Assembly: GCF_902501965.1 (NCBI RefSeq)
Contig: NZ_CABWID010000010.1
Location: 248,001-312,000, forward strand
Length of the DNA: 64,000 nucleotides
Direction of reading: 5' to 3'
DNA from: Collinsella sp. AK_207A
Lineage (GTDB): Bacteria > Actinomycetota > Coriobacteriia > Coriobacteriales > Coriobacteriaceae
Below the pieces are notes generated by a model. The model was not told the origin of the DNA. It did not search any database and was given only the letters and a program-made list of their open reading frames with translations. The translations under genes and the position numbers were made by a program. Shown here piece after piece: positions 6,174 through 41,632 of this stretch (its first letter is position 1; each line of letters starts with the position of its first letter).

Positions 6174-6235
6174 ATTTGTACCCCTCTTAATCCCGACTTC
6201 GCGCGATAATGATTACCCGCGCAAAGGAGGCCATC

Positions 6236-7204
6236 ATGGGAGGATGGGCCGCAACCGAAGCAGCTATCGACCTTCAATTTCAGAAGGCCGAGCAGCAAGG
6301 AGTCTGCCTGGTCTCGAGCTCCCGTTCCCTGCGGCGGGCGCTCGCCGCCAGGGCCAGCGAAGACATGCTGATCAGCCCGCTCCCCGGCATGTTTGCGCGG
6401 CCAGCCTATTGGAACGCCCTGTCTCGGCCTGAGAAGCTTCTACTGGTTGTTCGGACCGACGCCTTGCTGCATCCAACATGGGTTTTCTCCCATGCAACCG
6501 CCGCCTTCGTCCTCGGACTCGACGTTTCCTACAACCTCATCTGGCCCATCAACTTCCTCACCGATAATCCGGGAGGCGGAAAGCACCCTCCCCACCACAA
6601 GCACCATCGCACGGGCTTCAACGCCTTTATTGAAAAAGGCAGTATCAAGACAACCGATGTCCTGCAGACCGTCATCGACTGCGCGCGGACATATCCCTTT
6701 GGCCATGCCCTTGCGATAGCCGACTCCGCGCTCCACCAAGGGCTCATCGCCAAAGATGATCTTGAAGCCGGTCTTGCGTGGTTTGGCGGAAAGCGGGGTA
6801 TTCGGGCCGCCCGACGCGTCGTATCCCTGGCGGATGAACGACCGGATTCTGGAGGTGAATCCATGGTCCGCGCCCTCATGATGGAACTCAGCCTTCCCCA
6901 ACCGATCCTTCAGGCACCCGTTCCCAATCTTGAGCATCCCGAGCTCGTTTACCGCGTCGACTTCCTCTTCCGTCCCGAGGGGCTCGCCCCGGTCGCGTTC
7001 GAGCTCGATGGTCTCGAGAAATACGAGAGCATCCAGATGACCAAAGGTCGCACCGCAGTTCGCATCATGGCAGAGGAGCGACAACGCGAGGCCGCTATCA
7101 CGGCCAGTGGCATCCGCGTCGCCCGTCTTGGATTCCGCCAAGCCATGAAACCGCGCCTCCTCCTGGCCAAGCTCGCGGCCTACGGCGTGGTCCCTACCTC
7201 ATAG
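6236..7204 (+). CDS. AbiEi-like protein with C-terminal PD-(D/E)XK nuclease-like domain
   Basis: A 322-aa protein. The ATG at 6236 was chosen because AAAGGAGG sits 5 bases upstream. The N-terminal half (about 10-170) resembles the AbiEi/abortive-infection-antitoxin type: a winged-helix-like start, then LPGMFARPAYWNAL, then a domain containing VFSHATAAFVLGLDV and a DVLQTVIDCART helix. The C-terminal part has a candidate nuclease core: GGES (E208), YRVDF (D242), FELDGLEKY (E256, D258, K262) and an ERQRE helix, as in DUF559/Vsr-like proteins. It is paralogous to the gene at 16312-17331 throughout its length. It stands alone, bracketed by the 66-base palindromic repeats. Nuclease activity is inferred. 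Confidence 0.75.
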   Translation: MGGWAATEAAIDLQFQKAEQQGVCLVSSSRSLRRALAARASEDMLISPLPGMFARPAYWNALSRPEKLLLVVRTDALLHPTWVFSHATAAFVLGLDVSYNLIWPINFLTDNPGGGKHPPHHKHHRTGFNAFIEKGSIKTTDVLQTVIDCARTYPFGHALAIADSALHQGLIAKDDLEAGLAWFGGKRGIRAARRVVSLADERPDSGGESMVRALMMELSLPQPILQAPVPNLEHPELVYRVDFLFRPEGLAPVAFELDGLEKYESIQMTKGRTAVRIMAEERQREAAITASGIRVARLGFRQAMKPRLLLAKLAAYGVVPTS

Positions 7205-14465: not shown

Positions 14466-16082
14466 ATGGGCGATGCTTTGGATAGGCGATCCGGCGCAGG
14501 CGCGGACGCTCCCGAGGCATCAGGCGCCGACCCCACCATGCCACCCCTTACCCTCGAGAACTACGGCATCTTGCTTCCCTCTATCACCGGCCTCGCTATG
14601 GCTTCCACGGCCTCGAATATCATCGTTCAGCAGGCGCACGCCACCACCGGCATCTCCACCTTTGGCGGATGGGCGATGGTCGCCGCCTGCATCCCCGTCG
14701 GCGCGCTCTTCATCGCAACGCTCGTAGTCAAGCGCTTCTCCAAGCGGGCCATCTCGCTTTCCGTCTTCCTTTCCATTCATCTGGCGGGTCTCTCGGCCCT
14801 AGCGCTCGCCTTTGCCGACCTTACCCAAGCGAGTTTCCCTACTGCCGCGGAGCTGCTCTTTCAGGGGGCGATTGCGCTGGGCGCGGTGATCGTGCAGTTC
14901 TACTGGCTCCGCAAGCTGCGCGGCACCTCGGCCCAAGCCGTCGTGATGGTAGTGTTCTCGGCGCTTGCCATCTCCGAGCTGCTCACCTTTATCTGTTCCC
15001 TCGCGCCGCTGCCGACACGTCTCGCTTTCTCCGTGGCGCTCATGTTCATGCAATTCGCCGCGGTGAACCGCTCCCGCAAACTCGGTGTGCCGAGCGACCA
15101 ATTCCCCGCCGTCTCTGAAAGCTACTTTGGGACCGACGAAAACCGTTTCTCCAACCGCAGCTTTCTGGCGGTTGCCGCCATGGGCGTGTGGTTCATCTCC
15201 ATCCCGCTCGGCATGGGACGCGGCTTCCCTGCTGGACCGGCCATCTACCTCGACGTGCTGCCGCGCGGCCTTGTGCTCGCCTGCGTCTGCGTGGTCTCTG
15301 CGCTCTGGGTTCGCTTTGCCCTGGCCTCGCGCATGTGGGCGCTCACCACGAGCATCTGGGTGATGATGCAGCTGCTGCTTGGCGCGGGCGCCATCTGTTT
15401 TGCCGCATGGCCTGTCAACGCCAGCATGGGAGGCGCATTCTTCATGGCCGCAGCGCTCGTGCTGCAGGCGTTTATCTGGTACATGACCGTGGCCTTTACC
15501 AGCTTTGGCTGGCGCGACCCGTACTACTACGCCAGCGCCGCGTGGCTCGCCATGAACCTGCTTGCCATCCTCGGCATGCGCGTCGACTCGCTGCTGACCG
15601 CCATGTTCCCCACGAATACCGGCGTGATTATCGCCATCATGAGCTTCTTCGTGCTGATCGGCGCGCAGGTTGTCTTCACCCGACTCCTTGCCTCGCCCTC
15701 GGAGGAACAAGCCGCTGCCCAGGCTGCGGCGCAAGCTACCTCGGGTGCTGGTACCGAGGGCACCCCGACGGAGGAGGTGCACCACGAGCCGCTTATGGGC
15801 ATGCTCGCCATCTCTCCCCAGGAGAACATTTCTATGAGCAGCAAGACCCCGGACGTGCACATCGCCCAGTCCGTTATGGAGATGGGCCGGCTCTTCGGCC
15901 TTACCGGACGCGAGGTCGAGGTACTCACCCTCTACGCGCTGGGCCACACCCAGGCCCGCGTAAGCGAGGAGCTGCAGCTCTCCACGAACACCGTGCACAC
16001 GCACATCAAGCGCATCTATGAGAAGACCGACCTGCATTCGCGCCAAGAGATCCTCGACTACATCACCAAGTACGGACGATAG
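14466..16082 (+). CDS. Membrane-anchored LuxR-family transcriptional regulator
   Basis: A 538-aa protein. The ATG at 14466 follows GGGGAGGTAGAAGC. About ten to twelve hydrophobic segments fill residues 25-430 (for example ILLPSITGLAMASTAS and WAMVAACIPVGALFIATLVV). A low-complexity Ala/Gln/Thr/Glu linker follows. The C-terminus is a LuxR/GerE helix-turn-helix (about 472-533) with LTGREVEVLTLYALGHTQ and the recognition element LSTNTVHTHIKRIYEKTDLHSRQEIL. This build, polytopic membrane sensor plus LuxR HTH, is expanded in Coriobacteriia such as Eggerthella. It is divergent from the unknown gene at 13516, and the redox genes nearby are candidate targets. Confidence 0.92.
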   Translation: MGDALDRRSGAGADAPEASGADPTMPPLTLENYGILLPSITGLAMASTASNIIVQQAHATTGISTFGGWAMVAACIPVGALFIATLVVKRFSKRAISLSVFLSIHLAGLSALALAFADLTQASFPTAAELLFQGAIALGAVIVQFYWLRKLRGTSAQAVVMVVFSALAISELLTFICSLAPLPTRLAFSVALMFMQFAAVNRSRKLGVPSDQFPAVSESYFGTDENRFSNRSFLAVAAMGVWFISIPLGMGRGFPAGPAIYLDVLPRGLVLACVCVVSALWVRFALASRMWALTTSIWVMMQLLLGAGAICFAAWPVNASMGGAFFMAAALVLQAFIWYMTVAFTSFGWRDPYYYASAAWLAMNLLAILGMRVDSLLTAMFPTNTGVIIAIMSFFVLIGAQVVFTRLLASPSEEQAAAQAAAQATSGAGTEGTPTEEVHHEPLMGMLAISPQENISMSSKTPDVHIAQSVMEMGRLFGLTGREVEVLTLYALGHTQARVSEELQLSTNTVHTHIKRIYEKTDLHSRQEILDYITKYGR

Positions 16083-16085
16083 CGC

Positions 16086-16128
16086 CCTTGGGGTGGTTGG
16101 GAGCCGGCTTCCCACCACCGCCCCAAGG
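16086..16128 (+). terminator. Long inverted repeat after the LuxR-type gene
   Basis: Arms CCTTGGGG...TGGTTGGGAGCC and GGCTTCCCACCA...CCCCAAGG form an almost continuous stem starting 3 bases after the stop codon. No T-run follows, so it is an unusual terminator at best. It directly abuts the GCTAAGC repeat array. Confidence 0.55.
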
Positions 16129-16133
16129 CGGTT

Positions 16134-16316
16134 GCTAAGCGGATTTGCCACTATCGGGCTTTTGCTAAGCAGATTTGCCACTATCGGGCTTTTGCTAAGC
16201 GGATTTGCCACGAAGACCCTGTTTTCGAGGCTTTGCTGGCAGGTTTGCTTAGCAACCTCCTGTTACTGGAAGATGTGCTTAGCAACCGCCCCCTCCTGCC
16301 GACAGGTTTGCTTAGC
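16134..16316. repeat. GCTAAGC repeat array, cluster 1 (3' side of second AbiEi-like gene)
   Basis: Six copies of a 7-base box at 16134, 16164, 16194 (GCTAAGC) and 16247, 16277, 16310 (GCTTAGC, inverted). Spacing is 30, 30, 53, 30 and 33. The first 2.6 units are near-exact 30-base tandem repeats (box plus RGATTTGCCAC and TATCGGGC). The orientation flips around a central hairpin, TGCCACGAAGACCC against CGAGGCTTT..TGGCA. The last box contains the TAA stop of the AbiEi-like gene. The 53-base core closely matches that in cluster 2. Confidence 0.85.
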
Positions 16317-17331
16317 AGCGTCCCTTTAGCGGCCGATCAACTGAGCGACGTGCCCCGGGGTGCAGTCCAACGGAGGCCAGAAGGTGCTCCAACCATCCCG
16401 GTGCTACCAAATCGTGAAAGGTAAAGCGCAGCACCGGAAAGCCGAGAAGCGTCAAGTGCGATTCCCGCTGTCGTTCATCGATGAGCTTACGGGCCTCAAG
16501 TCCGTTCGCAAGCACGCCGCCTCGACCGTACTTACCGAGTCCATCGAACTCCCCGATGACTTTGTCCACCTTGTTACCAGCCCTTTTGATCTTCCAGAAG
16601 AAGTCAACCCGATACACCCGGTGCCGGTCAACCGGATCCCTGAGTTCGACCTGCAATTCCGGCAGCTCATATCCATTTTCTATCAGATAGGCTCGGACGC
16701 GAGATTCCCCGCCGTTCTCCGCGCGCGGGTCGACCCACTCCGCCGTATGAAGCGCCCCCGCTCGACCGTGACGACGAATCGTCTCCTTCATGACCCGACT
16801 CACGAACTCATCCCGGTCCAACCCCTGCAGGCGAGCTGCTGAATCGGCAACTGCCAAGGCTTCTGAAAAAGGTGCGGTCAGCAGGCAGTCGCATACCGTG
16901 CGCCAGAACGGCGTAACCATCATTCCCTGTGCGCACTCCGCTTCGACATTCCGGTACGAATGGAAGCTGACGGGGTGTTCGGGCATCCTTCCGGCATGCC
17001 CGGGCGCTTGAACGTGAATGGAATGAAGCAGGGAATACGGAACGTCAAGGCCGTGAATCAACGCAGCGCTCGAACCGCAGAAGATCCAGGCTGGATGCCT
17101 CTCGGCGAGACCTCTCATTACGCCGAGCATCCGCTCTTCTGCGGGAAGCGTCTGCCAGCGCGAGCGACGCGCAAAGACCCCGGGTACCGGCTCAACGATT
17201 TCATCCTTGCAGAGACGCTGCAAGACTCGTCGGTCAGCGGAAGATGCCGGCGCTAAACAGCCTCCTTGTTTCTCCGACTCATTGAGGAGAAGCTCCGCTC
17301 GCGCGCGTGCTGCAGTTTGTCGTCCCTCCAT
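16312..17331 (-). CDS. AbiEi-like protein with C-terminal PD-(D/E)XK nuclease-like domain (paralogue)
   Basis: A 339-aa protein with AAAAGGAGG eight bases before the ATG. It matches the 6236-7204 product along its whole length: EVPGVFARRSRWQTL-like start, WIFCGSSAALIHGLDVPYS, SEALAVADSAARLQGL, then GGES (E209), YRVDFFW (D243), GEFDGLGKY (E261, D263, K267) and DERQRE. The second half therefore keeps the spacing of a possible PD-(D/E)XK active site. Conservation of the acidic residues in both paralogues argues that the nuclease-like core is functional. The stop codon lies inside a GCTAAGC repeat, and a second array lies about 360 bases upstream. No toxin or antitoxin partner gene is adjacent. 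The activity is inferred. Confidence 0.75.
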   Translation of the reverse strand: MEGRQTAARARAELLLNESEKQGGCLAPASSADRRVLQRLCKDEIVEPVPGVFARRSRWQTLPAEERMLGVMRGLAERHPAWIFCGSSAALIHGLDVPYSLLHSIHVQAPGHAGRMPEHPVSFHSYRNVEAECAQGMMVTPFWRTVCDCLLTAPFSEALAVADSAARLQGLDRDEFVSRVMKETIRRHGRAGALHTAEWVDPRAENGGESRVRAYLIENGYELPELQVELRDPVDRHRVYRVDFFWKIKRAGNKVDKVIGEFDGLGKYGRGGVLANGLEARKLIDERQRESHLTLLGFPVLRFTFHDLVAPGWLEHLLASVGLHPGARRSVDRPLKGRC

Positions 17332-17688
17332 ATGCGCAACCTCCTTTTTGAAGATTACGCTAGCTCAGACCCCTTGTTTTCGCTCCCCGAGAAGGTGAGC
17401 GGTCTTAATGGAATCTGACAGGGATTACGATTTTTCTTCCACGGAACTCACGGTAAACACGACGCCGCCGCTCCAATGCGCGCCATTCTCGCCGACGCTC
17501 CGAAGAACAGCCGGCCCGTCCATACAATCGACATGAGCGGTTATGGAGAGACCAAGCAGGTCAGCCGTTCGCCGAACCGCCCCATGCTCTTTATATGATG
17601 AGCACGGGGCGGGTCCGGTATCACCGCCAACGCGGGGGGCATCGAGCCGCGTTGCGTTGCAAAGCAGATCTTCCACCACCAGTCTTTT
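17332..17688. other. Non-coding stretch upstream of the second AbiEi-like gene
   Basis: No reading frame here shows a ribosome site or recognisable protein. It must contain the promoter of the AbiEi-like gene; I cannot assign a clear -35/-10 pair. GGTCTTAATGG and other short segments show no named motif. Confidence 0.4.
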
Positions 17689-17806
17689 GCTAAGCATATC
17701 TGCCGGCAAGACCCCGGAAACGAGGGTTTCGTGGCAAAGATGCTTAGCAAATTCCTCTTGGTGGACGCTTTGCTTAGCAACCGGGGCTCCGGACGCTTTG
17801 CTTAGC
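17689..17806. repeat. GCTAAGC repeat array, cluster 2 (5' side of second AbiEi-like gene)
   Basis: Four boxes at 17689 (GCTAAGC) and 17742, 17772, 17800 (GCTTAGC), spaced 53, 30 and 28. This copies the inverted core and following boxes of cluster 1. The core again folds as TGCC..CAAGACCC..G against CGAGGGTTTCGTGGCA. It ends 45 bases before the purB stop. Confidence 0.85.
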
Positions 17807-17850
17807 AACGACCTCGCCATCGGAAGCAGACTGGGCCAACGGCCAAGGAG

Positions 17851-19194
17851 TTAGAACTCCAGCTGCTCCAGGCGGTCGAACACCGTGTCGATGCGGGTGA
17901 GGAAGTCCCAGGGGTCAAAGATCTCGTCCAGCTTCTCAGCCGGAATGGTGCAGCGCGGATCGGCCTCGAGCTTCTCCTTGAGGGTCGTGCCCGGCTCGCA
18001 CTGCTGCACCTCGCGCCAGGTGGCCATGGCGTTCTCCTGCACGATCTTGTAGGCGTCCTCGCGCGTGATGCCCGTGTCCACGAGTGCCAGCAGCACCTTA
18101 GACGAGAACACCAGACCGCGCGTCTTGTTGAGGTTGGCCTCCATCTGCTTGGGATAGAGGATCAGCCCGTCGATCACGCGCAGCAGGCACTGGAACATGT
18201 GGTCCAGCGCGATGAAGCTGTCAGCCTGCGCCACACGCTCGGCGGAGGAATGCGAGATGTCGCGCTCGTGCCACAGCGCCACATTGTCGAAGGCAACCTG
18301 CGCGTTCGCCTTCACCACGCGGGAGAGGCCGCAGACCTTCTCCATGGTGATGGGGTTGCGCTTGTGCGGCATGGCAGAGCTGCCCTTCTGGCCCTTCTTG
18401 AACGGCTCCTCGGCCTCTAGGGTGTCGGTCTTCTGAAGGTTGCGTACCTCGGTAGCGATGCGCTCGCAAGTCGCGGCCGTAGTGGCGAGGACGCCGGCCA
18501 GGTAGGCATGGTGGTCGCGGGAGATAACCTGCGTGGACAGCGGGTCGTGCACGAGGCCCAAGTGCTCGCAGACGTACTCCTCCACGAACGGGTCGATGGA
18601 ACTGTAGGTACCCACCGCGCCGGAAATGGCACCGAAAGCCACATTCTTGCGCGCGTCCACCAGACGGTCGAGGTCGCGCTTGAGTTCCCAGGCCCAGCTG
18701 CCGAACTTCATACCAAAGGTCATGGGCTCGGCATGGATGCCGTGCGTGCGGCCGACGCAGAGGGTGTTGCGCTCCTCGAAGGCACGGCGTTTGCAGATCT
18801 CGACGAGCTTCTTCACATCTTCGATGATGAGGTCGCAGGCCTGCGTGAGCTGGTAGCAGAGCGCGGTGTCGCCAAGGTCGGAGGAGGTCATGCCGTAGTG
18901 GACCCAACGGCTGGGCTTCGGTTCGCCCTCCGGCACCTCGGCATCGATGTAGCTGCCCATGTTGGTAAGGAAGGCGATGACATCGTGGTTGGTCACGGCC
19001 TCGATCTCGTCGACCTCGGCCTTGTTGAACTTGGCGTGTTCGCGGATCCAGGCGGCCTCTTCCTTGGTGATGCCACTCTTGCCGAGCTCCGCCTGAGCCT
19101 CGCAGGCGAGCACCTCGATCTCCTGCCAGACGGCGTACTTGTTCTCGAGCGAGAAGATGTGACCCATCTCGGGGCGGGTATATCGATCGATCAT
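17851..19194 (-). CDS. purB: Adenylosuccinate lyase
   Basis: Cleaves SAICAR to AICAR and adenylosuccinate to AMP, releasing fumarate. The 447-aa product starts at ATG 19194, five bases after AAAGGAG, giving MIDRYTRPEMG, the usual PurB opening. Signature elements seen are RWVHYGMTSSDLGDTA, GRTHGIHAEPMTFGMKFG (general-acid/base His region) and the fumarase/aspartase-superfamily signature GSSAMPHKRNPI carrying the mobile catalytic loop. The length is normal for the family. It follows PurC in the pathway, but the two genes are 16 kb apart, each monocistronic or nearly so. Confidence 0.97.
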   Translation of the reverse strand: MIDRYTRPEMGHIFSLENKYAVWQEIEVLACEAQAELGKSGITKEEAAWIREHAKFNKAEVDEIEAVTNHDVIAFLTNMGSYIDAEVPEGEPKPSRWVHYGMTSSDLGDTALCYQLTQACDLIIEDVKKLVEICKRRAFEERNTLCVGRTHGIHAEPMTFGMKFGSWAWELKRDLDRLVDARKNVAFGAISGAVGTYSSIDPFVEEYVCEHLGLVHDPLSTQVISRDHHAYLAGVLATTAATCERIATEVRNLQKTDTLEAEEPFKKGQKGSSAMPHKRNPITMEKVCGLSRVVKANAQVAFDNVALWHERDISHSSAERVAQADSFIALDHMFQCLLRVIDGLILYPKQMEANLNKTRGLVFSSKVLLALVDTGITREDAYKIVQENAMATWREVQQCEPGTTLKEKLEADPRCTIPAEKLDEIFDPWDFLTRIDTVFDRLEQLEF

Positions 19195-19945: not shown

Positions 19946-22900
19946 ATGACACGCAATCGAAGATCGAACGTACCCCCGCCCATGCCGATCGTGATAGCGG
20001 TGATTATCCTCTTAACCGCGCTGGCGGCGCTCTCGGCCTTGCGTCCGCTCTCGGCACGTGCTGCCGTTGACGCCATCGTCATCCAGTCGGACGAGTGCCT
20101 CACCGAATTCACCTCTGTCGGAGCCGTGACTCCCTCGTTCTTTCAGGTAACGGGCGGCGGCACCGGCTCCGCGGCATATTGCGCCATGGCGAGCATGAAG
20201 GCCCCGCGCAACGGCGACTCCTGCGCCTACTACGGGAGCCTCGGTATCCCTGAGCTCGACTACGTGATGTACCACGGCTACGACGGTGAGGTGGTTACCC
20301 AGATCTACGGCCTCGACGAGAAGCGATCGAAAGCAGCGACCGCCGTCGCCGTGTGGCTCGCCATCGGAGACCAGCGACTGGACGTCCAGACGGTGATCGG
20401 CGCGATCGACGGCAAACAGTACCAGGGGAACGGTGCCTGGCAGCTCGGATACAACTCCATCACCGACACCGCTGTCAAGAACGCCGCCTGGCGCCTGTAC
20501 CAGGAGGGCCTTGCTTACAAGACCGCGGGCGAGCATGCGCCCGAGAAGGGATGTACCACCTATTGGCGCTCTGGCGCGGATCCCTCCTACGGCCGCTGGC
20601 AGGCCATGGTCACCGTGGAGAAGAGCGTGGACGTGACATTCTCCAAGACCTCCGCGAACGCCACACTCACCAACGGTAACACGGAATACAGCGTGGCCGG
20701 CGCCGAATATGACATCTTCCTCGCGTCGAACAATACCAAGGTGGCACACATCACCTTGGATGGCAATGGCCAAGCGAACTTGTCTCTCAAGCCGAATACC
20801 GACTATTACGCCGTCGAGACCAAGGCGCCGCGAGGCTTTGTGCTCGATACCGGGAAGCGCGCGTTCCAGACCAAGACGGGACAGACCGCGGTCACCCTGA
20901 CCGATATCCCCGGCGCCGTGAACCTCTCTCTGCGCAAGCGTGACGCCGATACGCACGGCAACGCCCAAGCAGCGGCGACCCTCGAGGGGGCCGTGTTCCG
21001 CATCACGGACGCCAACGGCAAGACGCATGAGGCGAGAACTGATACCCAGGGGCGCTTCTCGGTGACGGGCCTACCGCTGGGTCAGATCACCGTGGTTGAG
21101 ACCAAGGCGCCTACCGGCTATCTCCTCGATGAGACTCCCCGCATCTACCAGTCCTCCGCAGATGACTTGCCCGCCACAGGGGTGGTCGAGATTGAACGAG
21201 CGAATGACTATGACGAGCAGATCATCCGCGGCGGGGTCCGCGTACAAAAGCTCGATGCCGACAGCGAGAACGATCACAACACGGGAGACACCTCCTTTGC
21301 CGGCGTGAAGTTGCAGGTCTTGAACGCCAACGCGGGAGACGTCATGGTCGGCGGCAAGGCCATCCCCCAGGGCGGTGTGGTCGCAACGCTCACGCTCGAC
21401 GAGCACGGCACGGCCGCCACTTCGGCAAAAGCCTTGCCGTACGGCACGTACCGTGTGATCGAGAGCGCCGGGGCGGGCGGATACCGCCTGAACCGCGATT
21501 GGTCGGCGACCATCACAATCGAGCACGACGGTCAGATGGCCGACCTCACCGCGAACCCGGTTTCCAACGAACCCATCCGAGGCGATATCCTCGTCCGGAA
21601 ACGCGATGTGCAAACCGACGCGACCACCGCGCAGGGAGGCGCCACCTTGGAAGGCGCCGAGATCTCCATCACCAACCGCTCAACCAAGATGGTGAAGGTC
21701 AACGGGGTGTTCTACCAACCCGGTGAGGTTGTCTGCCGCCTGCTAACCGACGCTCAGGGCAAGGCGCGAACCGAAAACGGGGCGCTACCCTACGGCACCT
21801 ACGAGCTCATCGAAACCAAACCGCCGCGCGGATACAAACTGAACACCACGTGGAAGAAGACCGTCGAGATCCGAGAGCACAACAAACTGTATGAGGTGAC
21901 CGGTCCGTGCGGCAGCATGAACCTTGCTGGCAAGAGCAACACCTCCGGTGTGGGCAACCTGGTGAAACGCGGCGACCTGCACTTCAACAAAATTGCCGGG
22001 ATCGCGCAGCGGCGCTTGCCACGCACGGCGTTCCTCATCACCTCCGATTCCACGGGAGAGCGCCATGTGGTAGTCACCGATGAGAACGGCTCCTACGACT
22101 CACGCGCCTCATGGACTCCGCATACCGCGTACGTGGACGATGAGGGCATCGAGCATAAGACCAACGCCAACGATGCGCTCCTCTCCTCGGATGGGGCTGC
22201 CATCACAGACAGCCGGGGACTCGATCCCGCTGCGGGAACCTGGTTCTTCGGCTCTGCGAACAACAAGGATGCCGCGCCCGACAACGCGCTGGGAGCGCTT
22301 CCGTACGACACGTATACCGTGCAGGAGCTGCGCTGCGAAGCGAATAGGGGCTACCAGCTCGTCCGCTTCCGCCTGAGTGTGACACGCGACGGAGCCGCCG
22401 TTGACGCCGGCACCCTCACGGATACCATGCCGTCCATCTCCACCAAGCTTGGAGACGGCAATGGCAGCCAAGAGCTCGCTGAGATGGAAAATCTACAGCT
22501 CATTGATACCGTCAAGCTGAGCGACCTTGCCGAGAGCGCAACCTATACGCTTGTCTGCAAGCTTTGGGACGACACAGCCGGTGCCTATCTCACGAACGGG
22601 GATGGCAGCGAACGCACCTGGCAGCAGGAGGTGCATGCCAAGGGAACCAGCGTCACCGTCCGCCAGAAAATCAGCCTTGATGCGCGCAGTCTGACCGGTC
22701 ACACGCTCGTGGCCCACGAGTTTCTCTACGATGCTGGCGGAACCCTCATCGCCGAACACGCGGATAACAGCGATCCCGAGCAGACGGTAACCTTTGCGTC
22801 GCTCGACACCATGGCCTCCGGAGCGCACGGCGAGCGCGACATCCCCGCTGGTCCCACGACCGTGCACGATCGCGTGACCTGGGCAGGTCTTCGCCAAGAT

Positions 22901-25300
22901 GCCGTGTACGAACTCACGGCAACCGTCCACCTCCTCGATGAAAAGGGGCGGGACGACGGCGTGGCAACCAAGACCGACGGAAGCCCCGCACGGGCAACGA
23001 AGGAGTTCACGGCAACCTCCTCGCAGGGTGATACCGCCATGGAGATCGAGGTTGACGCTACGGAACTCGGTGGACGAACCCTGGTGGTCTTCGAGGTGCT
23101 CAAGCGCAATGGAACCACCGTCGCCCGGCACGAGGACGTACGCGATGACCAGCAGATGGTCACCGTACCGCGCATTGAGACCAAGGTCTCGGGCGAGGAC
23201 GGTTCGAACACAGCCCGTGCAGCTGAGGATGCTTCTTTTACCGATGTGGTCCGTTACCAGGGACTCGTTCCCGGTCAGACCTATGAATTGCGCGGCACCC
23301 TGCATCTGCGCCACGAGGATGGAAAGGACGCAGGCTCATTGACCGATGAGGCAGGGAACGAGCTTGTCTCGACGGTCTCTTTCACGCCTACGGAGTCAAC
23401 GGGTGAGGTCGAGGTACCGTTCAACATCGATGCTCGCGCGCTCGATGGCAAGACGCTCGTTATTTTTCAAACGCTCGCCCGAAACGGCGTAACCTTCGCC
23501 ACCCATGAGGATATCGGCAGCGGCGATCAGGAAGTCCTCCTTCCTCATATAGACACCACCGCGACCGATGCGGACACCGACTCCCATGAACTTGCCTCCA
23601 CGGGCAAGGTCACGGTCGTGGACCGTATCTCGTACGAGGGTCTCGTCCCCGGTCACCTCTACACGGTAACGGGGACGCTCATAGATGCGGCAACCGGAGA
23701 GGCAGCCCTCGATGCCTCCGACCAGCCCATTCGTTCACAGGAGCGCTTCACGCCCAAACAGAGCTCGGGCACCGTGGAGATTACGTTCACCTTCGATGCG
23801 GCGCGTTTTGCCGGAAAGACCTTGGTGGCGTTTGAAGAGGTCGAGCGCGACGGCAAGCTCTGGACTTCCCACGCCGACCTCACCGACGCGGATCAGACGG
23901 TGACCATCCCCCGCATCGGCACCTCGCTCGCGGATAACGGCGGCGCACATGAGGTTCAAGCCGCTCGCGACCCCAAGCTCATCGACACCGTTGCCTTTGA
24001 GAACCTCACCCCCGGCACGGAGTATCGACTCGTCGGCAGGCTCAAGAATGCCGAGACCGGCAAACCGGTGACGGACGCCAGCGGCAGGGAGGTCAAGGCG
24101 AAGACCTCATTCACCCCGAAGAAGCCCGACGGCTCCGTGGACGTCACGTTCGCCTTCGATTCCAGCAAGCTCGCTGAGCAGCGTCTGGTTGCCTTCGAAG
24201 AGCTCTGGCGCGCCGATTCGCTCATCGCCGCCCATCGCGATCTCACCGATGAGAACCAGACGGTCAGCATTGTTGACATTACTACCAAGGCAAGCGATGC
24301 CCAAGACGAGGACAAGTCCCTTGAGCTGCGAGACGGTATCGCGACCATCGCCGACGAGGTGGAATACCAGGGACTTACCCCGGGTGAAACCTATGAGCTC
24401 GCCGCGAGCGTCATCGCGAAGGACAGCGAGAACAAGGAGGTGCTCCCTGCTCTTGACCTGACAGAAATAGAGGTCGTTGAGCTGCAGGAGGACATGGAGA
24501 AGGATGTCGAACTCCTCTCGAATGGGCGAGTCCGCTTCACGGCGCAAGCGCCCTCTGGGAGCATCCGCGTGCCGATTCGCATCTTCATCGGAGCGCTCTC
24601 CGGAAAGACGCTCGTCGCGGCAGAAGAGCTCACGCGCGGCGGAAGGACGGTAGCGGTGCATCGAGACCTCGAAGATGAAAAACAGACGGTGCGAGTACCG
24701 GAAATCGACACGACGCTTACCGCGCTTGATGGCAAGCACGCCGTTGCGAGCAATGCCTCGGTTGAGCTGGTGGACACCGTTTCGTATCGCAATCTCGTGC
24801 CCGGGAAAACCTACCGCGTCATCGGAGCGCTCCAGCTCCTGCCCAAAGACTGGCCAAGCGGGCGAGACAAGGCGGACGTTGAGCCCGAAAGCGACGCCGT
24901 GGTAGCAGAGGATGCGGCCGAGCGTGTTGATACCGCCCTTACGGGCGCCGACGGGCAGCCGATGAGCGCTGAGGCCGCCTTCACGCCCGAGCAGCCCGAC
25001 GGCACGGTACCGGTTACCTTCTCCTTCGATGCGCAAAAGCTCGGAGGCCGAAAAGTCGTCGCGTTTGAACGCCTCTACACCGAGGACGGCTCACTCGTCG
25101 CACAGCATGAAGATCTTGATGATCGAGCCCAGACCGTCGAGGTTGCCGCGCCGCTCCCCAAGACCGGTCTGTTCAACCGCCTCGCCGTCCCCCTGCTTGT
25201 CACGGCCGCCACAGCGGTCACCGCGCTTGGGTGGTATACCCGGCACCATGGCCAACGTTCAGGCCCGAAGGGACCGCGCTGGATGATGCGTCAACGGTGA
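19946..25300 (+). CDS. Sortase-anchored surface protein with thioester, SpaA/Cna-B-like and seven VaFE (T-Q ester) repeats
   Basis: A 1784-aa wall protein. The signal/TM segment is residues 14-40. An N-terminal thioester-type domain (about 45-205) has SAAYC with C79 and an AVAVW block, although the usual TQxA triad is not evident. Three to four SpaA/Cna-B-like modules follow (about 210-800), recognised by ETKAPRGFVLD, ETKAPTGYLLDE, ESAGAGGYRLN and ETKPPRGYKLN. Seven repeats of the VaFE type come next (LVPGQTYELRGTL...LVAFEEL...HRDLTDENQTV), then the sorting signal LPKTG, a hydrophobic stretch and a basic tail ending WMMRQR. This build is that of long adhesin or pilus-like stalks stabilised by intramolecular bonds. 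A sortase must be encoded elsewhere. Confidence 0.93.
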   Translation: MTRNRRSNVPPPMPIVIAVIILLTALAALSALRPLSARAAVDAIVIQSDECLTEFTSVGAVTPSFFQVTGGGTGSAAYCAMASMKAPRNGDSCAYYGSLGIPELDYVMYHGYDGEVVTQIYGLDEKRSKAATAVAVWLAIGDQRLDVQTVIGAIDGKQYQGNGAWQLGYNSITDTAVKNAAWRLYQEGLAYKTAGEHAPEKGCTTYWRSGADPSYGRWQAMVTVEKSVDVTFSKTSANATLTNGNTEYSVAGAEYDIFLASNNTKVAHITLDGNGQANLSLKPNTDYYAVETKAPRGFVLDTGKRAFQTKTGQTAVTLTDIPGAVNLSLRKRDADTHGNAQAAATLEGAVFRITDANGKTHEARTDTQGRFSVTGLPLGQITVVETKAPTGYLLDETPRIYQSSADDLPATGVVEIERANDYDEQIIRGGVRVQKLDADSENDHNTGDTSFAGVKLQVLNANAGDVMVGGKAIPQGGVVATLTLDEHGTAATSAKALPYGTYRVIESAGAGGYRLNRDWSATITIEHDGQMADLTANPVSNEPIRGDILVRKRDVQTDATTAQGGATLEGAEISITNRSTKMVKVNGVFYQPGEVVCRLLTDAQGKARTENGALPYGTYELIETKPPRGYKLNTTWKKTVEIREHNKLYEVTGPCGSMNLAGKSNTSGVGNLVKRGDLHFNKIAGIAQRRLPRTAFLITSDSTGERHVVVTDENGSYDSRASWTPHTAYVDDEGIEHKTNANDALLSSDGAAITDSRGLDPAAGTWFFGSANNKDAAPDNALGALPYDTYTVQELRCEANRGYQLVRFRLSVTRDGAAVDAGTLTDTMPSISTKLGDGNGSQELAEMENLQLIDTVKLSDLAESATYTLVCKLWDDTAGAYLTNGDGSERTWQQEVHAKGTSVTVRQKISLDARSLTGHTLVAHEFLYDAGGTLIAEHADNSDPEQTVTFASLDTMASGAHGERDIPAGPTTVHDRVTWAGLRQDAVYELTATVHLLDEKGRDDGVATKTDGSPARATKEFTATSSQGDTAMEIEVDATELGGRTLVVFEVLKRNGTTVARHEDVRDDQQMVTVPRIETKVSGEDGSNTARAAEDASFTDVVRYQGLVPGQTYELRGTLHLRHEDGKDAGSLTDEAGNELVSTVSFTPTESTGEVEVPFNIDARALDGKTLVIFQTLARNGVTFATHEDIGSGDQEVLLPHIDTTATDADTDSHELASTGKVTVVDRISYEGLVPGHLYTVTGTLIDAATGEAALDASDQPIRSQERFTPKQSSGTVEITFTFDAARFAGKTLVAFEEVERDGKLWTSHADLTDADQTVTIPRIGTSLADNGGAHEVQAARDPKLIDTVAFENLTPGTEYRLVGRLKNAETGKPVTDASGREVKAKTSFTPKKPDGSVDVTFAFDSSKLAEQRLVAFEELWRADSLIAAHRDLTDENQTVSIVDITTKASDAQDEDKSLELRDGIATIADEVEYQGLTPGETYELAASVIAKDSENKEVLPALDLTEIEVVELQEDMEKDVELLSNGRVRFTAQAPSGSIRVPIRIFIGALSGKTLVAAEELTRGGRTVAVHRDLEDEKQTVRVPEIDTTLTALDGKHAVASNASVELVDTVSYRNLVPGKTYRVIGALQLLPKDWPSGRDKADVEPESDAVVAEDAAERVDTALTGADGQPMSAEAAFTPEQPDGTVPVTFSFDAQKLGGRKVVAFERLYTEDGSLVAQHEDLDDRAQTVEVAAPLPKTGLFNRLAVPLLVTAATAVTALGWYTRHHGQRSGPKGPRWMMRQR

Positions 25301-41370: not shown

Positions 41371-41400
41371 ATTGTAGGGAAATCGCCGCTCGAATGTCAA
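41371..41400 (-). promoter_or_regulatory. rpmH operon promoter
   Basis: On the minus strand TTGACA (41395-41400) and TACAAT (41371-41376) are 18 bases apart, close to sigma70 consensus, about 78 bases before the rpmH start. Confidence 0.85.
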
Positions 41401-41456
41401 TCGCACAACTAAAAAAGAACGCGGTGACGAGGTATCTACGCAGGGCGTTCACGGGC

Positions 41457-41571
41457 TTTTCAACACTTTTCACCATATTGCACTGAGTTTTCAACAGCTC
41501 ACGTTGAAAGTGTTGATAACTTTTCGCGATTTTTCTTCAGTTTTCAACCATTTCGGAAAACTTGTTGAAAA
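41457..41571. other. Candidate replication origin part 1: DnaA-box-like cluster
   Basis: Five TTWTCAACA-type nonamers: TTTTCAACA at 41457 and 41488, TTATCAACA (complement) at 41511, TTTTCAACC at 41541 and TTTTCAACA (complement) at 41563. They lie in an AT-rich gap between rpmH and the ATPase gene. Gene orientation diverges here. They differ from the TTATCCACA consensus by A for C at position 6, so species-specific recognition is implied. Confidence 0.65.
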
Positions 41572-41632
41572 CCTGAAAGAACCGCGGCCACGCGGTATGC
41601 TGGTTGGGCATCTTCGAGGAGTGGGATCACGC

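Follow-up and report, generated by a model that had tools for sequence, protein, structure and literature searches.

An AbiEi-like gene of Collinsella sp. AK_207A is bracketed by two clusters of a short inverted box, which raises the question whether these clusters are a private feature of the gene and what connects the boxes to its product. The stretch of 64,000 nucleotides that was analyzed (hereafter, the window) contains 11 GCTAAGC/GCTTAGC boxes, all but one of which lie inside the two clusters (six at 16134–16316 and four at 17689–17806), as stated in the preliminary description. The box count in the window is only marginally unusual (at least 11 boxes in 5 of 100 shuffles); the improbable feature is the arrangement of the boxes, not their number. 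In both clusters, the orientation flips across a core step of exactly 53 bp and is followed by steps of 28–33 bp, again as described. The outer steps are 30 and 30 bp (left) and 30 and 33 bp (right) in array W1, and (30) bp (left) and 30 and 28 bp (right) in array W2, which is lengthened by one more, degenerate unit (TTGCAAAGCA at 17657). The TAA stop codon of the gene indeed forms part of a box, and W2 is located between the 5′ end of the gene and the stop codon of purB.

Table. Coordinates of the gene, its paralog, and the flanking arrays in the window.
Feature	Position	Strand	Remarks
AbiEi-Vsr fusion gene, 339 aa	16312..17331	-	predicted AbiEi-like part (residues 7–201) and Vsr/EDxHD-type nuclease part (residues 205–324)
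Paralog of the AbiEi-Vsr family	6191..7201	+	open frame; 36% identity; no array nearby
Array W1	16132..16318	.	inward + units at 16132, 16162, 16192; core; inward - boxes at 16247, 16277, 16310
Core of W1	16192..16255	.	64 bp, quasi-palindromic; step of exactly 53 bp between the inner boxes, shared by all 12 arrays
Outermost box of W1	16310..16316	-	holds the TAA stop codon of the gene
Array W2	17657..17808	.	+ units at 17657 (degenerate), 17687; core; - boxes at 17742, 17772, 17800
Core of W2	17687..17750	.	64 bp; 53-bp step

Two other features of the window are clustered GTTGAAAA/TTTTCAAC boxes at 41380–41600, where the sequence is richer in AT, and a gene (19946–25300, + strand) encoding a surface protein of 1784 aa that contains seven TQ ester-bond domains as well as SpaA-type folds. 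The clustered boxes resemble DnaA boxes and perhaps mark a replication origin.

The arrays are not private to this gene, contrary to what the first view of the locus implied. The source genome (G000) carries 12 arrays of one plan, spread over several contigs, and 10 of them are located elsewhere, adjoining, for example, glgA/murG, tyrS, prfC, pgi, and rpmE (names read from translations). All 31 box pairs at 30-bp spacing in the genome fall in arrays (0 with the reversed pattern as control), and there are 12 cores with an exact 53-bp step (control, 0). Wherever gene calls are clear, every array lies behind at least one gene end (calls by codon score; unclear at L013). The array unit is GTTGCTAAGCAgatctgCCacCAAGgGGGc, arranged in 30-bp units of the form TTGCTAAGCA...CC. 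Among the 94 units extracted from the 12 arrays, the box is almost invariant and position 19 (C) nearly so, the remainder being variable, and the units on both flanks point inward to a single quasi-palindromic core.

The geometry of the arrays is strict. All 12 arrays have a center step of 53 bp, and on either side the second unit, if present, follows the first after 30 bp; the 70 outer steps are 28–33 or 41–42 bp long, and lengths of 34–40 bp were never seen. The initial suggestion that a spacing of about 30 bases suits proteins on one face of the DNA agrees with these lengths, which fit sites that keep to one face of the B-form helix, some steps being longer by a full turn. The core arms co-vary, with 12 pairs changed on both sides and a covariation score that was reached by 0 of 500 shuffles, and the inner unit pair is more alike within one array than between arrays (P 0.0008); left and right outer units show no covariation (P 0.83, 0.64, and 0.56 for shells 2–4). 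Adjacent units on the same side resemble one another, and judging from this similarity the arrays probably grow by local duplication.

The symmetry of the arrays is also compatible with a function as RNA, i.e., as giant hairpins in 3′-UTRs with a part in mRNA protection or processing. In folding, whole arrays outperform shuffles by a wide margin (z −14.6 and −8.0), and the core arms co-vary. However, the absence of covariation outside the core weakens the case for RNA. Moreover, a 41-bp step on one arm has no counterpart on the opposite arm, which also speaks against paired hairpin steps; the helical-turn fit is a property of DNA, and mirror symmetry alone would produce the fold. A function as RNA is therefore considered improbable.

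Rfam models left the array unmatched (only tRNAs reached the gathering score), and no intrinsic terminator (GC hairpin and T tract) was found at 15900–18000. Nor is a CRISPR array recognizable, with a 10-bp box that occurs in both orientations and LuxR-family and purB genes as neighbors; the initial impression that the array is neither a terminator nor derived from CRISPR or tRNA genes is borne out. (In the relative G018, a long direct-repeat array with a 61-bp period at L204:1721–4500 is probably a CRISPR.) A different kind of function would be that of immobile binding platforms for the AbiEi-Vsr or another protein, which might serve in nucleoid anchoring, as a transcription roadblock, or as replacement terminators. 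The strict phasing and the strong conservation of the box relative to the diverged spacers suggest selection on binding; 11 of the 12 stop codons in G000 within 120 bp of an array have no intrinsic terminator before the array, and no array of this genome was found between divergent genes.

Among 45 genomes of the genus, the GCTAAGC array box is confined to G000; the core pattern with up to two mismatches is absent from the 44 others save for one chance-like match, and wider sets of genome contigs and viral contigs yielded nothing beyond unrelated or chance singletons. The relatives are probably also Collinsella, C. aerofaciens being the source of the sole match to a neighboring-species protein in a plasmid collection. 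Analogous arrays with other boxes are present in several relatives. A box-independent scan for inverted box runs, which covered 800 kb from three relatives and returned none in shuffles, revealed an ACTGACA array in G016. The entire genome of G016 contains seven ACTGACA arrays, all with a center of 32 and an identical 25-nt gap and with steps of 20 bp or multiples thereof; such arrays are absent from the other 44 genomes of the genus. Seven TGGCGGT arrays were counted in 488 kb of G025; their steps measure about 29, and the center is 53 bp in six of them (one is irregular). In 200 kb of G034 there are seven CCTATGG arrays, in which the steps are 20, 40, or 60 and the center is 45, increasing to 65 in cases of a decayed inner box. 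In species resembling C. aerofaciens, CTGTAACA boxes alternate at 33 and 47–48 bp, resulting in an 80-bp period; this layout differs from the mirror plan and is closer to that of BIMEs. The inward-facing tandem plan around a fixed core is found in four of the five box families. No mirror-type arrays were seen in samples of G022, G005, G028, G001, and G060.

Further repeats were encountered at related sites. A TGAGACC array with steps of 31 is located behind pgi in G034 (L246:11209–11340); pgi of G000 likewise precedes a GCTAAGC array (L011:2833–3110), possibly a shared insertion site. G018 has inverted CGGGGACGTACC elements (L199:11930, L202:8828, and L121), one of which immediately follows prfC, a position occupied by an array in G000. 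A long inverted repeat with arms of about 45 bp (CCCCAGGATTAACGTTTTACGAAGACCCCGTGTGCA) is present downstream of purB in the purB–LuxR intergenic region of G008 (L036).

The AlphaFold2 model of the 339-aa protein is confident (pLDDT 86.7). Residues 7–201 of the model, with a winged-helix N-terminus, match the structure of AbiEi (6y8q) with Z 8.4 and an rmsd of 6.4 over 167 residues, whereas residues 205–324 align to the homing endonuclease I-Bth0305I (Z 9.8) and to Vsr (Z 8.5). The original label “AbiEi-like” is thus appropriate at the level of the fold but missed the additional Vsr-type nuclease domain. Residues E209, D243, E261, and K267 are invariant across 16 homologs, and the three acidic residues in this predicted Vsr-like catalytic fold are consistent with a putative active site of the PD-(D/E)XK type. 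Sequence searches of Pfam, NCBIfam, and PDB assigned the protein to no clear family (Pfam, no match), and the PADLOC matches to AbiEi are weak (E 0.0015).

Members of this family and arrays occur together in several species. The gene in G000 sits between the only close pair among the twelve arrays, the homolog in G034 has two arrays on each side, and the homolog in G025 has two arrays no more than 0.9 kb away; random placement of at least two arrays at a gene has a p of about 0.0004 (G000) or 0.002 (G025). In the CTGTAACA set of 21 family loci, 15 have boxes on both flanks and 20 have them on one flank or both, but these 20 loci represent mostly one orthologous locus and are worth one or two independent cases. 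A paralog in L171/L173 has its own array (GGGA..ACTTTCCG) about 50 bp past its stop codon. No close homolog is present in G016, although this genome carries arrays; the array-adjacent gene (L223:174–1205) is only a remote homolog (hhalign E 4.6e-6, probability 86%) that shares the predicted nuclease fold type (I-Bth0305I, Z 8.4). The ortholog of the CTGTAACA-clade AbiEi-Vsr gene in G024 was matched in two pieces only (C1:65089–66037) and is perhaps a broken copy. Counter to a matched pair of gene and arrays, several paralogs have no convincing arrays, namely the paralog in the window (6191–7201) and those at L018, L019, L174, L176–L178, L272, and L296. The array-bearing members are not grouped together in the family tree.

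Each box is near-exclusive to its own gene (a looser test word, ACTTTCC, is less so), and family copies with different boxes are bracketed by different arrays. The link between arrays and gene product that had been proposed for the single locus is backed by this comparison across species, each box family having an array beside a gene of the superfamily, and the association is well supported at the level of sequence. An opposite conclusion, no link between AbiEi-like genes and arrays, was based on array-free paralogs in G000 and a scan for mirror patterns; it was overturned by a pattern-free scan. The mirror-only scan had missed the alternating CTGTAACA arrays, and the pattern-free scan has a loose background (80 of 600 windows); coding and CRISPR-like repeats that emerged from the scans (L204, L241, and L275) were excluded by eye.

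The adjacency of gene and arrays might also be a coincidence or reflect a shared insertion hot spot, with the protein being an unrelated defense factor or toxin–antitoxin relic. AbiEi-like proteins are typically encoded by defense genes, and many paralogs lack arrays. Yet the association repeats with at least five different boxes, each faithful to its own gene, and no gene for an AbiEii (DUF1814) nucleotidyltransferase toxin adjoins the gene in the window, whose neighbors encode a LuxR-family regulator and adenylosuccinate lyase (purB). Coincidence is accordingly rated as very improbable.

There is also evidence for a turnover of arrays. At a site upstream of prfC, the CTGTAACA array is present in seven species and absent from seven close relatives, with both flanks aligning, and the filled sites differ in length by whole 80-bp units. 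Because there is no clear target-site duplication at the filled or empty site, insertion and deletion are indistinguishable, and it is possible that the difference arose by deletion rather than insertion. At the purB locus, the genes on either side of the gene and its two arrays are direct neighbors in some relatives (e.g., L040 and L054). Such differences argue against immobile binding platforms: arrays are gained or lost at one and the same site, this site of the CTGTAACA clade is located upstream of prfC and not behind a gene, and box and geometry differ between sister species, whereas conservation of both would be expected of elements with a housekeeping role. In G016, moreover, arrays often coexist with canonical terminators. 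Terminator replacement was rejected as suggestive in G000 but not in G016; the comparison with relatives is noisy because many stop codons are mis-set. A role as binding platforms is considered unlikely, though less so than the other alternatives.

The reading to which an even chance is given treats the two clusters as copies of a lineage-specific array that is dispersed through the genome and forms, with the bracketed AbiEi-Vsr gene, a matched repeat/nuclease pair. Array geometry, dispersal, species specificity, gene–array adjacency in five families, and, in one clade, filled and empty sites and length differences are read directly from the sequences. For binding, cooperativity, cutting, copying mechanism, and mode of spread, we infer the following scheme. 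The winged-helix AbiEi part would read the box, and copies of the protein would bind side by side on one face of the DNA, outward from the mirror-symmetric core; such loading would dictate the core length of 53 bp and the step lengths of 30 or 41 bp. The Vsr-type nuclease part would then nick or cut the DNA at or near the core, and homing-like recombination repair might copy, lengthen, or remove arrays at other intergenic sites. If the protein both reads the box and causes the copying of arrays, box and protein would change jointly, resulting in one box per protein lineage.

The comparison among species suggests that nuclease and repeats evolve as matched pairs. Somewhat short of an even chance is the broader proposal that AbiEi-Vsr proteins and phased mirror arrays constitute a separate, HUH-independent repeat/nuclease class, in which each lineage recognizes, spreads, or maintains its own box, with a box specificity that is readable from the genome and changes between species. 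If true, a common gut genus would carry many natural pairs of DNA-reading nuclease and target, each with its own specificity, and would join REP/RAYT as a second, independent illustration of the life of short repeats in bacterial genomes. A testable function would also become available for AbiEi/DUF559-like proteins, a large group that commonly carries no label beyond antitoxin-like. A literature search limited to papers accessible without subscription revealed none that joins Collinsella with AbiEi and none that describes such arrays.

Among known systems, REP/BIME-RAYT (PMC2817692, PMC3116915) likewise comprises lineage-specific palindromic extragenic repeats that are dispersed also elsewhere in the genome and a nuclease gene flanked by two repeats (here in G000, G034, and the CTGTAACA clade), and repeat and enzyme appear to change together. 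An origin of the arrays as ordinary REP/BIME repeats that a Y1 (RAYT) transposase mobilizes is nevertheless hardly probable. Their dispersed, extragenic, palindromic, and lineage-specific nature would be compatible with this explanation, as would the presence of Y1_Tnp genes in five of the six genomes tested, but the single Y1_Tnp gene of G000 (C16:12714) has no boxes nearby, and G034 carries arrays yet has no Y1_Tnp match. The enzyme is an AbiEi-Vsr fusion and not an HUH/Y1 transposase, the unit (GTTGCTAAGCA...) lacks the GTAG or CGTC head on a 20–40-nt palindrome that is typical of REPs, and there are at most 12 arrays (94 units in G000) versus usually more than 100 REPs; because of these differences in enzyme, head motif, and copy number, membership in REP/RAYT fails. 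In addition, four of the five families have inward tandem units around one fixed core instead of alternating REPs.

In the AbiE type IV toxin–antitoxin system, AbiEi binds two 23-bp inverted repeats, 3 bp apart, with positive cooperativity, and Rv2827c binds four 23-bp inverted repeats (PMC7319586). The protein described here shares with them the predicted AbiEi fold and multiple inverted DNA sites by the gene; it differs in the fused nuclease domain, in the missing neighbor toxin gene, and in sites that form long arrays and occur also at ten further loci, not solely at its own promoter. With EDxHD/Vsr-type homing endonucleases such as I-Bth0305I it has in common the predicted fold of the catalytic domain (residues 205–324), whereas the gene is free-standing and encodes an AbiEi DNA-binding part, and the putative target is a repeated array rather than a single long one. 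Small interspersed repeats such as BOX and RUP (PMC3049150) are also modular, intergenic, and hairpin-forming, with a variable number of inner units, but the arrays described here combine a species-specific box with a genus-wide geometry and an adjacent nuclease gene. Arrays and gene are best read as a pair with a REP/RAYT-like organization, in which the enzyme is unrelated and the plan of the array, with its helical phasing, is new.
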